NCBI GenBank assembly: GCA_026390135.1
Contig: JAPLGN010000022.1
Coordinates: 1-64,000, forward strand
Reading direction: 5' to 3'
DNA: 64,000 bases
DNA from: Campylobacterales bacterium
GTDB taxonomy: Bacteria > Campylobacterota > Campylobacteria > Campylobacterales > Sulfurimonadaceae
Position numbers and translations under genes: made by a program. Below are positions 497 through 52,943 of the stretch, piece after piece (the first letter of the stretch is position 1; each line of letters starts with the position of its first letter). Below the pieces are notes generated by a model, which saw nothing but the letters and a program-made list of their open reading frames with translations, did no database searches and was not told where the DNA came from.

Positions 497-3442
497 ATGC
501 CTTCAAAAAAAAATTCATCTCCTTTCGTACGGAATCTCTGGCAAACAATTTCTGTCCTAATACTATTTTTAATTTCATTTAATATCTATGTTTATTCTGA
601 GAAACGAATTGATCATATTAATGAGATACGTCTAACCTCTTTTTTACTCGCGGATGAGCTACGCCATTCCTCCGATGATTTAACACGAATGGTCAGAACC
701 TATGTAGCTACAGGAAATCCCCTCTACAAAGAACATTATCAAGAAATTCTCGATATTCGTAATGGCAAAAAACCTCGTCCCCTCTATTATCAAAATATTT
801 ACTGGGATTTGGTTGGACTGGATGATAAACGTCCACGTCCATCCAACAACCTATCGATATCATTAATAGAGATGATGACACAGGCTGGTTTCACACACGA
901 TGAATTTGCCAAACTTACAGAAGCAAAAAATAATTCCGATACACTCACCCAAACTGAATTTGCCGCAATGGAGCTGATCCAATCCAAAGGCTCCCAATCA
1001 CAGATGGCTCTTCAAAAACAAAAAGCACTCGAACTCTTGCATGATGAAACCTATCATCATGCAAAAGCTTCTATTATGCATCCTATTGATGAATTTTATA
1101 TCATGATGAATAAACGGACGAATGATGCAGTTTATCAAGCTGAAATGATTGCTTTTTATTTTCGAATACTCTTTATTTTGATTGGAATCTATTTTTTCTT
1201 CATGCTTTGGCGACTTTATAAAACAATCCATAGGATGTTAGGAGATTCCATTGATAATGTTCATCATCACATTTCCTTGATCGGTAAAGGTGATTTTAGC
1301 AATCCTATCATCCTAAACGAAGGGATGGAAGAGAGCATCATGAGTTGGCTCAGAGAAACACAGACCCAACTCAAAGAGACTACTATTGCTAATACACGTC
1401 TAAGACAGCTCTATGCTGCTCTTAGTCAATGCAATCAAGCCATCGTCCGCTCAAAAAATCAAGAAGAACTTTTTCCCATCATTTGTCGTGATGCCGTCAA
1501 TTTTGGTGGCATGGAAATGGCATCCATTTCCATGCTAAATGAACAAAATCAGCAAATGGAATTAGTTGCATTTTATGGTGAAAGTACCGATTACAGTACC
1601 GAATTTCCACTTTATCGTGACAGCAAGATGGTGGGAGTATTTACCCTCTATGCGCAAGAAAAAGAAGCCTTTGATGAAGCAGCGCAAAGATTGCTCGAAG
1701 AGATGGCAATGGACATCAGCTTTGCACTAGAGAGTTTCAAGCATGATACTATCCGAAAAGAGATGGAAGATGCATTGTACCAAAGCCAAAAACATCTATC
1801 AACTATTATTGAAACGGAACCCGAATGTGTCAAATTGGTAGATGCAAGAGGAAAATTGATCGAAATTAATCCTGCAGGGCTTGCAATGTTAGAAGCTGAT
1901 ACACTGGAAGAAGCACAAAAATATACTTTGACTCACTATCTACTTCCTCAATGGCGAGTTCCTTTTATCGAGTTGCACAAACGTGTAATGAACGGTGAAA
2001 ATGCTATATTGGAATTTCAAATTCAAGGGATAAAAGGGACACGGCGTTGGCTTGAAATACATGCAACACCTTTGCGTGATGTCAACGGAAATATTATTAT
2101 GTTACTAGGTATTACAAGAGATACTACGGAACGTAAACATAATGAAGAAAAGATTCGCTATCTGGCAAATTTTGATTCTCTTACCGGCTTGCCAAATCGT
2201 ACACAACTCAACCTGCAGATAAAACACTTATTAAGTTTGGCAAAACGTAATGATAAAGAGATTACGGTCATGTTCCTTGATCTTGATCGATTCAAAGAGA
2301 TCAATGATACTTTAGGTCACAGCGTAGGTGATACCCTGCTGATTCAGTCTTCTGAACGTATGCGATCATTATTACGTGAAGAAGACACTGTAGCACGATT
2401 GGGAGGCGATGAGTTCATCATCCTTCTCCCAAACATACAAATGAATGGTGCTAGTAAAGTGGCTCAAAAACTTTTAGACATCTTTAACACTCCTTTCCAA
2501 ATCGATCACCATGAACTTAGTATCAGCGCTTCTATTGGAATTGCTTTATATCCTAATGACGGAACGGACTTCGAAACTCTCTACAAAAATGCCGATACCG
2601 CAATGTATCGCGCCAAACAAGAAGGGCGTAACGGCTACAGTTTCTTTACCAATGAGATGCAAGAACATTCAGTTCGAAATCTTGAGTTGAGCAATGCCTT
2701 GCGTTATGCACTGGAAAAAAATCAATTCCAGCTCCACTATCAACCTCAAATTTCTACTAAAGATGGTGAAATCATTGGAGCAGAAGCTCTTTTACGCTGG
2801 TATCATCCAGACCATGGAACCATATCACCTGCGGAATTTATCCCTATTTTAGAAGAGAATGGTCTCATCTTGCCCATTGGGGAATGGGTGCTGCGTACTG
2901 CCATATCTCAAGCAAAAATTTGGATGGACCAAGGGAATAAACCAATTATTATTGCTGTCAATCTATCCGCGGTACAATTTCGACACCTATCGCTGCTAAA
3001 CACAGTTTCTACAATACTCGAAGAAATCGGATTACCTCCTCACTACTTGGAACTCGAACTCACCGAAAGCATAGCAATGCATGACCCGCAAAAAGCCATC
3101 AATGTAATGAATGATTTATATGACCTTGGGGTACATATGTCCATAGATGACTTTGGGACAGGATATTCAAGCTTAAGTTACCTCAAGAAATTTAAAATCT
3201 ATAAACTCAAGATTGATCAATCTTTTATTCGGGACATAAACATCGATAAAGAGGATAAAGCAATCGTCAGCGCGATTATTAGTATGGCAAAACGTTTAGG
3301 ATTACAAACTATTGCTGAGGGAGTTGAAACAATTGGGCAACTCGAATACCTTCAATCAGAAGGATGCGATGAAATACAAGGATATTTTTACTCTAAACCT
3401 CTTCCCGCCGAAGCGTTTGAAGCTTTTAGAGCGAGTCGTTAA
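497..3442 (+). CDS. Membrane GAF-PAS-GGDEF-EAL cyclic-di-GMP enzyme
   Basis: Transmembrane helices at about residues 12-34 and 214-236 bracket a periplasmic helical domain. That domain contains an SSDDLTRMVRTYV block and a GKKPRP block known from many bacterial sensors. A HAMP-like linker, a GAF-like region (about 300-415) and a PAS domain (about 430-545) follow. The GGDEF domain has an intact GGDEF motif at 636-640, so diguanylate cyclase activity is plausible. The EAL domain has E763-A764-L765 and the later DDFGTGYSSL motif, so phosphodiesterase activity is also plausible. Which activity dominates cannot be read from sequence. The start is ATG after TTTAGGAAT. The gene is monocistronic and converges on mscL. 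Confidence 0.93.
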   Translation: MPSKKNSSPFVRNLWQTISVLILFLISFNIYVYSEKRIDHINEIRLTSFLLADELRHSSDDLTRMVRTYVATGNPLYKEHYQEILDIRNGKKPRPLYYQNIYWDLVGLDDKRPRPSNNLSISLIEMMTQAGFTHDEFAKLTEAKNNSDTLTQTEFAAMELIQSKGSQSQMALQKQKALELLHDETYHHAKASIMHPIDEFYIMMNKRTNDAVYQAEMIAFYFRILFILIGIYFFFMLWRLYKTIHRMLGDSIDNVHHHISLIGKGDFSNPIILNEGMEESIMSWLRETQTQLKETTIANTRLRQLYAALSQCNQAIVRSKNQEELFPIICRDAVNFGGMEMASISMLNEQNQQMELVAFYGESTDYSTEFPLYRDSKMVGVFTLYAQEKEAFDEAAQRLLEEMAMDISFALESFKHDTIRKEMEDALYQSQKHLSTIIETEPECVKLVDARGKLIEINPAGLAMLEADTLEEAQKYTLTHYLLPQWRVPFIELHKRVMNGENAILEFQIQGIKGTRRWLEIHATPLRDVNGNIIMLLGITRDTTERKHNEEKIRYLANFDSLTGLPNRTQLNLQIKHLLSLAKRNDKEITVMFLDLDRFKEINDTLGHSVGDTLLIQSSERMRSLLREEDTVARLGGDEFIILLPNIQMNGASKVAQKLLDIFNTPFQIDHHELSISASIGIALYPNDGTDFETLYKNADTAMYRAKQEGRNGYSFFTNEMQEHSVRNLELSNALRYALEKNQFQLHYQPQISTKDGEIIGAEALLRWYHPDHGTISPAEFIPILEENGLILPIGEWVLRTAISQAKIWMDQGNKPIIIAVNLSAVQFRHLSLLNTVSTILEEIGLPPHYLELELTESIAMHDPQKAINVMNDLYDLGVHMSIDDFGTGYSSLSYLKKFKIYKLKIDQSFIRDINIDKEDKAIVSAIISMAKRLGLQTIAEGVETIGQLEYLQSEGCDEIQGYFYSKPLPAEAFEAFRASR

Positions 3443-51742: not shown

Positions 51743-52047
51743 TTATAACTCCCACTCATTTTCACTAAAATACGAGGCGTTAAATGTTAATAATTACACA
51801 ACGAATGTATTCTGCCAGATATTTTATACCTGTTGTGTCCCACGAAAAGATTGTAGTTTAGTTCGGCTTAAATATCCATTCCAGTGTACATTTCACCTCG
51901 GAAAAGTGAAACGAGGCAGCTAGATTAATTTATAAAATAGTTGGATCGTTAGGGAGCAGGTTAAAAAACATATAATCTTCAAAAGCATTTTTGCCCGAAT
52001 TAGCGTGTTAAATAATTTTAGGGAAGAGGAATTATCGAGAAGCCAAC
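51743..52047. other. Intergenic region without a recognisable gene
   Basis: No frame with coding character is seen on either strand. At 51891-51916, TTTCAC/GTGAAA and CTCG/CGAG can pair, but they share the same space, so only one stem forms at a time. The stretch may be remains of decayed sequence next to the small-gene patch that follows. Confidence 0.4.
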
Positions 52048-52191
52048 TTAATTTGCAAGCTGTGCTTTGAGAGATTTGATTTTATCAATTTGTTTGACAG
52101 TAGCGACACGAAGCACTTTTTTTTGCTCATCGGTCAAATTTTTGATAGGCTTGGTGGTCTGTAGTTGATTATCACGAATAATATATAACAT
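52048..52191 (-). CDS. Small basic protein, 47 residues, function unknown
   Basis: An ATG-initiated frame of 47 codons begins MLYIIRDNQLQTTKPIKNL, then a lysine-rich helix (DEQKKVLRVATVKQIDKIKSL) and ends AQLAN. AAGGGG lies 9 nt upstream of the ATG, and a GGTATAAT promoter lies about 32 nt upstream. The same 17-nt promoter segment precedes the 54-residue gene at 52740. No known family is recognised. The promoter, ribosome-binding site and residue composition support a real gene. Confidence 0.6.
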   Translation of the reverse strand: MLYIIRDNQLQTTKPIKNLTDEQKKVLRVATVKQIDKIKSLKAQLAN

Positions 52192-52214
52192 TCTAAACCC
52201 CTTGCTTCTTGTTA

Positions 52215-52231
52215 ATTACTGAAATTATACC
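52215..52231 (-). promoter_or_regulatory. Promoter of the 47-residue gene (copy 1 of a shared 17-nt element)
   Basis: On the minus strand this reads GGTATAATTTCAGTAAT, an extended -10 element. An identical 17-nt copy lies at 52927-52943. Each -10 box is 31-32 nt from its ATG. Confidence 0.6.
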
Positions 52232-52288: not shown

Positions 52289-52741
52289 TTAAATTTTGAG
52301 AAAAAGATAACGCTGTTTGTCTCTATCGTTGTGCGGTTTGAATCCGAACTCCTTAGTATAAAATTCTTCGAGCTTATCATTGTCTGGAACAAGTGCAAGC
52401 CATCGCACTCCGACCTCTGAACTAATTTTTTTTGCCAATACGATTGCCAAATCGATGAGATAAGTAGAAATTTTGGTGTTGGCGAGTTCCTCAAATGCAC
52501 TGCCTCGATGTTCACTCGAAACAAACAGATAATCAATCTGAATCGTAGAGATGGAATCAACCCGTGAAGCGGATAAACCGATAAGCCCAGCCAAAGAATT
52601 ATCTAATTCAAGTGCATAGACGACGATAGAGCCTTTCTCGGCTGAAGAGGAGAGTTGCTTGATAAACTGGCGTTCTTGTTCGGTAGAGGTCTTTGTGAGG
52701 TAAGCAGTTGGTAGTTTGGTGGCTACGAACTTTCGAGGCTT
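52289..52741 (-). CDS. GNAT-family acetyltransferase, no start codon; readable through a +1 frameshift
   Basis: 150 codons encode a GNAT fold: KFVATKLPTAYL, SIVVYALELDNSLAGLIGLSAS, DYLFVSSEHRGSAFEEL near the acetyl-CoA loop, and WLALVPDNDKLEEFYTKEFGF. No ATG, GTG or CTG occurs in frame before a TTG at 52594, which is deep inside the fold. The frame joins the upstream 54-residue gene by a +1 shift at GAT-TTT-TAA, where tRNA-Phe can slip on a run of five T exactly at the stop codon. GNAT enzymes acetylate small molecules, proteins or aminoacyl-tRNA. This is a programmed frameshift, a point mutation or a sequencing error. Confidence 0.65.
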   Translation of the reverse strand, partial: KPRKFVATKLPTAYLTKTSTEQERQFIKQLSSSAEKGSIVVYALELDNSLAGLIGLSASRVDSISTIQIDYLFVSSEHRGSAFEELANTKISTYLIDLAIVLAKKISSEVGVRWLALVPDNDKLEEFYTKEFGFKPHNDRDKQRYLFLKI

Positions 52742-52904
52742 AAAAATCCCACACCACCTTGGCTGTTTTGATGATATTCATCGCTTTTTGAACAGCTTTA
52801 TCACCCTGAGGATTGTTTTCTACTGCCATAATGACAGCTTTAGGTAGTTTGCCACGAAAGTATGTTTTAACAACTTTACCGCTTTTGGTCATCTTAAATG
52901 CCAT
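52740..52904 (-). CDS. Small basic protein, 54 residues, possibly N-terminal part of the GNAT protein
   Basis: ATG-initiated, with GGGGAGA just upstream. It begins MAFKMTKSGKVVKTYFRGKL and ends IIKTAKVVWDF, with a TAA at a T-run. It is probably small and basic, with no membrane segment and no recognised family. It may be an independent protein encoded before the GNAT gene, as antitoxins are in two-gene GNAT modules, or the N-terminal part of a frameshifted fusion. It does not look like the ribbon-helix-helix antitoxins of known GNAT toxins. Confidence 0.6.
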   Translation of the reverse strand: MAFKMTKSGKVVKTYFRGKLPKAVIMAVENNPQGDKAVQKAMNIIKTAKVVWDF

Positions 52905-52926
52905 GGTCTCCCCTTTTTACTTTGTG

Positions 52927-52943
52927 ATTACTGAAATTATACC
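52927..52943 (-). promoter_or_regulatory. Promoter of the 54-residue/GNAT unit (copy 2 of the shared 17-nt element)
   Basis: Minus-strand GGTATAATTTCAGTAAT, identical to 52215-52231. A short inverted repeat, TTGATAC/GTATCAA, lies further upstream at 52979-52993. Confidence 0.6.

Follow-up and report, generated by a model that had tools for sequence, protein, structure and literature searches.

A GNAT acetyltransferase gene without a canonical start codon, overlapping a small lysine-rich gene in Sulfuricurvum-like Campylobacterota: probable AUU initiation in a candidate toxin-antitoxin pair

The window, by which we mean the whole 64,000-nt stretch analysed (positions 1 to 64,000 of contig JAPLGN010000022.1, Campylobacterales bacterium, assembly GCA_026390135.1), carries on its minus strand an overlapping pair of genes (Table 1). 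The first is a small gene with an ATG start behind the ribosome-binding site GGGGAG, and its 3' end reads GTG GTG TGG GAT TTT TAA. The second encodes a GNAT acetyltransferase, whose frame is open from 52777 to 52289 and lies in the +1 relation to the 54 codons of the small gene; its earliest ATG, GTG, TTG or CTG is a TTG at 52594, in the middle of the fold. A run of five T crosses the junction. The initial annotation had described just these features (a 54-residue gene with a good ribosome-binding site, a GNAT frame in +1 relation to it without any usual start down to a mid-fold TTG, and the junction GAT TTT TAA G), and the sequence confirms all of them. A real two-part locus with a missing start codon therefore stands; what finds no support, as argued below, is the interpretation that had been placed on it, namely a prfB-like +1 shift at TTT-TAA.

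Table 1. Features of the overlapping gene pair and of the neighbouring second module, in window coordinates.
Feature	Position	Strand	Basis or remark
Small gene, upstream member of the pair; Lys-rich 54-aa protein, candidate antitoxin	52740..52904	-	ORF with ATG and ribosome-binding site
GNAT acetyltransferase ORF, candidate toxin, 152 aa if read from ATT	52289..52747	-	Pfam PF00583, fold
Proposed AUU start of the GNAT, at -8 nt from the small-gene stop end	52745..52747	-	
GGG codon where the closest relatives have the GNAT ATG	52748..52750	-	Comparison with relatives
Internal Shine-Dalgarno sequence AAGGTGG	52754..52760	-	6 nt before ATT, 8 nt before the TTT slip codon
GAT TTT TAA, would-be shifty stop	52740..52748	-	Sequence
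Operon promoter: -10-like TATAAT box, with a copy ahead of the second module	52936..52941	-	Sequence
Small gene of the second module: intact, 47 aa, same protein family	52048..52191	-	Family alignment; homologous intact pair in G025 (L010)
Second-module GNAT remnant: start TTG changed to TCG, ~375 nt internal deletion	51922..52047	-	Alignment with L010

The GNAT protein scores above the curated cut-off of its Pfam family. When read from the ATT, its AlphaFold2 model (pLDDT 92.7, first strand at residues 5-7) is a complete GNAT, so that no N-terminal fusion is needed. In a structure search with this model, the first 26 PDB matches are without exception GNAT toxins, alone or in complexes (TacT, AtaT, AtaT2, KacT, GmvT), with TM values of about 0.7-0.76 to the top matches TacT, AtaT, KacT and GmvT. 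Across 31 GNAT sequences the sole invariant residues are R81 and Y130; Y130 aligns to the Tyr of the FY motif (FY..xGF) in GmvT and AtaT2, which we take to be the catalytic Tyr of GNAT toxins. The (R/Q)xxGxG/A acetyl-CoA loop is not present in the window GNAT, which has RGSAFEELANTKIS at this place: the arginine is the invariant R81, the glycines are absent, and a longer stretch replaces the usual glycine-rich loop. The lack of this loop is a trait of the GNAT family: in the R81-S94 region (about 52507..52466 of the window), its members retain R81 and, where the helix begins, a Lys-x-Ser. The small protein has no confident Pfam or NCBIfam match, and none of 41 members of its family matches DUF1778 (RHH) at E values up to 0.1; its predicted structure is of low confidence (pLDDT 69.7), and a fold search with this weak model was uninformative.

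Relatives were sought in 41 genomes of the genus, and the same pair is found in two other species: a Sulfuricurvum MAG (G002) and a Lac Pavin MAG (G007), with 97% and 93% GNAT identity to the window, respectively. The 25-nt junction AAGGTGGTGTGGGATTTTTAAGCCT is identical in the window and in these two other Sulfuricurvum-like species, which come from separate assemblies, and the frames are intact in all three. GNAT dN/dS is 0.02-0.05 in all three pairwise comparisons, with dS from 0.4 to saturated, and 0.06-0.12 in the stretch ahead of the mid-fold TTG; between the window genome and G007, 76 of the 94 GNAT differences fall at third codon positions. The small gene has a dN/dS of 0.09-0.17 among the same species. 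Because dN/dS is low in the pre-TTG stretch as well, the GNAT appears to be translated and selected from about the junction onward, and judged by these substitution patterns the frame is under strong purifying selection, its N-terminal part included. Between the window genome and G002, core-gene dS (0.22-0.27) is near the GNAT dS (0.37), so the ATG-less state has outlived the divergence of the species. It is thus very improbable that the GNAT is a recent pseudogene or that its missing start is a sequencing or assembly error, as the annotation's own fallback of a one-base mutation or homopolymer error would have it: the absence of a start codon and the broken GNATs carried by several relatives would fit such an explanation, but three independent assemblies have the junction in common and the low dN/dS goes with high dS. 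By this comparison, the start-less GNAT is neither an assembly error nor a decaying gene.

What kind of locus this is becomes clearer from the wider family. The collection comprises about 40 loci of Campylobacterota (Sulfuricurvum, Sulfurovum, Arcobacter, Nitratifractor and others), and nearly always a Lys-rich small protein of ~50 aa is encoded upstream of the GNAT; the small proteins form one alignable family of 41 aligned members with the motif M-A-[YFL]-x-I-K-[DN]-G-K-V. In the 28 intact relatives, some of which are close relatives of each other, each GNAT has its own start (12 ATG, 13 TTG and 3 GTG), located between -23 and +9 nt from the end of the small-gene stop, and its frame relative to the small gene is +1 in 17, +2 in 7 and 0 in 4. 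Such co-located stops and starts are a published mark of translational coupling (PMC3711429). In the nearest relatives the small gene ends in Tyr-(Asp/Glu/Ala)-(Phe/Leu)-stop and the GNAT ATG lies within T-ATG-(A/C), at -11 from the stop end (G059, TATGATTTTTAA; G032, TATGAGCTATAA; G054, TATGACTTTTAG; G236 and G391, TATGCTTTTTGA). In L053, the GNAT ATG is at -8, the same place as the ATT of the window.

These relatives bear directly on the proposal of a programmed +1 frameshift, in which tRNA-Phe would slip on TTTT as the UAA waits, giving a small-protein/GNAT fusion in addition to the free small protein. Transcriptional slippage was set aside, a run of five T being probably too short for it. 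Several points favour a +1 shift. As in prfB, a slippery pyrimidine run precedes the stop, an SD-like element is present ahead of it and the frame relation is +1; the P-site codon can re-pair fully in +1 (TTT T before UAA); the three species share one junction sequence; and among the prfB genes of low-GC organisms some have TTTT in place of CTTT (PMC12421855). However, in prfB the Shine-Dalgarno sequence precedes the slippery sequence by 3 nt and the UGA stop has a C behind it (PMC12421855; PMC5009743), whereas here the gap between the Shine-Dalgarno sequence and the P-site codon is 8 nt and the stop with its next base reads UAA G. Moreover, no fused small-protein/GNAT frame was seen among the 28 intact relatives: in each the two genes are separate and the GNAT has a start of its own, and with all three frame relations represented no shift is conserved, which on these alignments excludes conserved programmed frameshifting in the family. 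Frameshifting at the window junction itself, and with it the fusion protein, is accordingly unlikely. The annotation had proposed that conservation of TTT-TAA would point to programmed shifting. The motif is indeed conserved in the three species, but G059 has TTT TAA as well, along with a normal GNAT ATG, so conservation of the motif alone is no sign of shifting; read against the relatives, it derives from two overlapping protein ends and gives no evidence of a shift. If the AUU reading given below is true, it shows that a slippery stop beside an out-of-frame gene can be a by-product of overlapping-gene evolution.

How the GNAT could then be initiated is suggested by the few nucleotides in which the window lineage departs from its relatives. 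The Tyr codon TAT of the small gene is here TGG, which makes the GNAT ATG a GGG, and the next codon is ATT, the first AUN codon after the position of the lost ATG, conserved in the three species. ATT is known as a rare start codon, and AUU is normally a poor start. The claim of a missing start thus holds as far as canonical starts go, but it had left this ATT, at the N-terminus of the conserved GNAT, unconsidered. The ATT is partly forced by the Asp-Phe-stop end of the small protein (GAT TTT), so its conservation alone proves little. In the three ATG-less species, the duplex of the internal Shine-Dalgarno sequence AAGGTGG(TG) with the anti-SD (16S 3' end GGATCACCTCCTT, verified in two genus members) has an energy of -8.3 to -8.9 kcal/mol (window, -8.3), while the best energy among about 30 relatives is -4.0 kcal/mol: a strong Shine-Dalgarno sequence before the GNAT is found in the three ATG-less species only. 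For comparison, the 39 gene starts of the window have a median energy of -5.6 and a 10th percentile of -8.5. The Lys and Val codons that compose the Shine-Dalgarno sequence are rare ones (AAG 15%, GTG 16%), and energies this strong arise in 1.5% of synonymous resampling trials and in 2.1% of coding windows, meaning that its presence at that position by chance is not extremely improbable (1.5-2%). Its distance to the ATT falls in the 5-9 nt range of initiation (PMC2268962), and Shine-Dalgarno sequences raise the efficiency of re-initiation (PMC2268962). We infer that it is placed for initiation at the AUU and not for a +1 shift.

We propose the following scenario. The ancestral GNAT start would have been an ATG lying within the 3' end of the small gene (T-ATG-A in Tyr-Asp/Glu-Phe/Leu-stop); in this Sulfuricurvum lineage, the change of TAT to TGG in the small gene would have cost the GNAT this ATG, and initiation would have shifted to the adjacent AUU (52747..52745). 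There, the strong Shine-Dalgarno sequence (AAG GTG GTG), which would have arisen inside the small gene 6 nt upstream, would position either a ribosome that terminates on the small gene or a newly recruited 30S subunit. Discrimination by IF3 against AUU would then allow little GNAT per small protein, and the amount of GNAT would follow IF3 activity. An overlapping two-gene operon, in which AUU initiation of the GNAT is coupled to termination of the small gene, is in our judgement the best explanation of the locus, and a probable one. Alternatively, the GNAT might start at another near-cognate codon (the ATA that heads the open frame, or the GGG) or by a start-codon-independent restart after termination. 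The ATA is conserved in the three species and ribosomes are able to re-initiate a few nucleotides from a stop, but conservation is lacking in the peptide that a start at the ATA would add ahead of the ATT (SSKQPRWC / LLKTLRWC) and no Shine-Dalgarno sequence is seen at the ATA, while the one that exists fits the ATT; we regard these other modes of initiation as unlikely.

A weak start on an AUU is not unprecedented. E. coli infC, the gene for IF3, has a strong Shine-Dalgarno sequence. It resembles the GNAT proposed here in its AUU start and in the sensitivity to IF3 that would be expected (PMC5472188), and differs from it in that the GNAT is no translation factor, so that the AUU would limit a partner protein and not its own regulator. 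As a precedent within the genus, infC gave no support for AUU use: in the three loci checked (L068, L069, L070), directly after the TGA of the upstream frame, it appears to have a TTG start followed by ATT. A functional parallel is sigR-rsrA of Streptomyces, where IF3 represses the GTC start of sigR and the antagonist RsrA is consequently in excess (PMC5472188): there, as is proposed here, the two antagonists are encoded in an operon with translational coupling, and a non-canonical start keeps the level of one of them low. The gene order is reversed, the codon is GTC and not AUU, and the proteins are others; what is experimental in Streptomyces is deduced here. In type II toxin-antitoxin systems the antitoxin is made in excess of the toxin, with a contribution from translation (PMC5535158), and a weak AUU on a toxin gene would fit this logic. 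The relatives seem to reach weak GNAT starts by other means, with TTG or GTG, or with an ATG that lacks a Shine-Dalgarno sequence.

Whether the pair is a toxin-antitoxin system is a question of function, compatible with any model of the start site. The GNAT resembles the toxins of type II GNAT systems (TacAT, AtaRT, KacAT, GmvAT) by its fold, by the invariant FY-motif Tyr and by the small gene upstream in a tight operon; it differs from them in that the partner has ~50 aa and is not DUF1778/RHH by sequence, and in that an insert replaces the acetyl-CoA loop, the toxin role being a prediction here. Toxin-antitoxin-like loci with unknown antitoxins, in which the ORF ahead of the acetyltransferase is short, divergent and devoid of any known DNA-binding domain, have been discussed previously (PMC9177977). 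The pair is like them by description, with the difference that the partner family is defined here by 41 aligned members and the junction is analysed. Small genes remain open beside GNATs broken by frameshifts at seven loci (L042, L052, L047, L031, L035, L043, L008) and beside an internally deleted GNAT at another (L036), and the second module of the window is a further such case, with the reservation that a small ORF is a shorter mutational target; G007 carries the module elsewhere in its genome. Survival of the small genes and the change of site fit a toxin-antitoxin module, and the structural model suggests that the pair is an uncharacterised toxin-antitoxin family with the GNAT as candidate toxin, a role that structure and genome context together make likely. 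It could instead be that there is no toxin-antitoxin system and that the GNAT is an ordinary modification enzyme, acetylating the Lys-rich small protein or another target. The small protein is indeed rich in Lys and has no recognisable antitoxin domain, and different roles were left open for GNATs outside the true toxin-antitoxin clade that follow divergent short ORFs (PMC9177977); set against this, the best structural matches are all tRNA-acetylating toxins, and the gene order, the outliving of broken or deleted GNATs by the small gene and the changed location in G007 all speak for the module. We consider an ordinary enzyme doubtful, if a serious alternative. The most specific form of the toxin-antitoxin hypothesis, a Campylobacterota family that combines a TacT-like, tRNA-acetylating GNAT with a non-RHH antitoxin of ~50 aa, and in which the toxin of one lineage depends on an AUU and is set by IF3 and by termination of the antitoxin gene, is more tentative, with chances somewhat short of even. 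If it is true, (i) a family with an undescribed antitoxin joins the GNAT toxins, fitting the divergent short-ORF loci discussed before (PMC9177977); (ii) the locus is a natural example of a gene that lost its start codon and was rescued by a rare AUU, together with a ribosome-binding site newly formed in the partner gene; and (iii) gene finders limited to ATG, GTG and TTG miss where such genes begin.

Outside Campylobacterota, a similar short Lys-rich ORF with a GNAT is found on plasmid pSD of Geobacter anodireducens (L065), the sole relative found in plasmid records; the annotation of the plasmid lists a shortened hypothetical protein for the GNAT and nothing for the small gene. No relatives of the pair were found in viral contigs and phage records, PADLOC and PHROGs searches returned generic acetyltransferase or weak matches only, and literature searches found no description of this small-protein/GNAT pair.

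The window itself holds a second module, directly downstream on the minus strand (52191..51922). Its small gene is intact, and by comparison with the homologous pair L010 its GNAT has lost the TTG start and ~375 nt of internal sequence. A 34-nt direct repeat (52198-52231 and 52910-52943, 82% identity) carries the TATAAT box and the leader of both modules, and the two small genes would thus probably have the same promoter type or regulation.

Several further observations concern individual loci. The GNATs of L042 (G132) and L052 (G427), from different taxonomic families, have a common frameshift at a poly-A run after codon 5; conserved -1 shifting was considered for them and rejected, since both carry a further lesion and look decayed. 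L029 (200-240) has another start-less GNAT: where its relatives have TTG it has TAG, in an otherwise intact frame without another visible start. Direct repeats of 57 nt with 84% identity (L023:2218-2274 and 2966-3022) stand on either side of the module in G007; they correspond to the 3' end of the upstream gene, apparently formylglycine-generating-enzyme-like, as if left by a gene-end insertion or by a paralogue. Lastly, between the window genome and G007, the 5' half of the small gene (52882..52834, minus strand) is almost without synonymous changes; dS is 0.52 in the small gene and 2.6 in the GNAT. This suggests that the small gene is under some additional constraint, for example from an RNA element or an operator, or that its history is another one.
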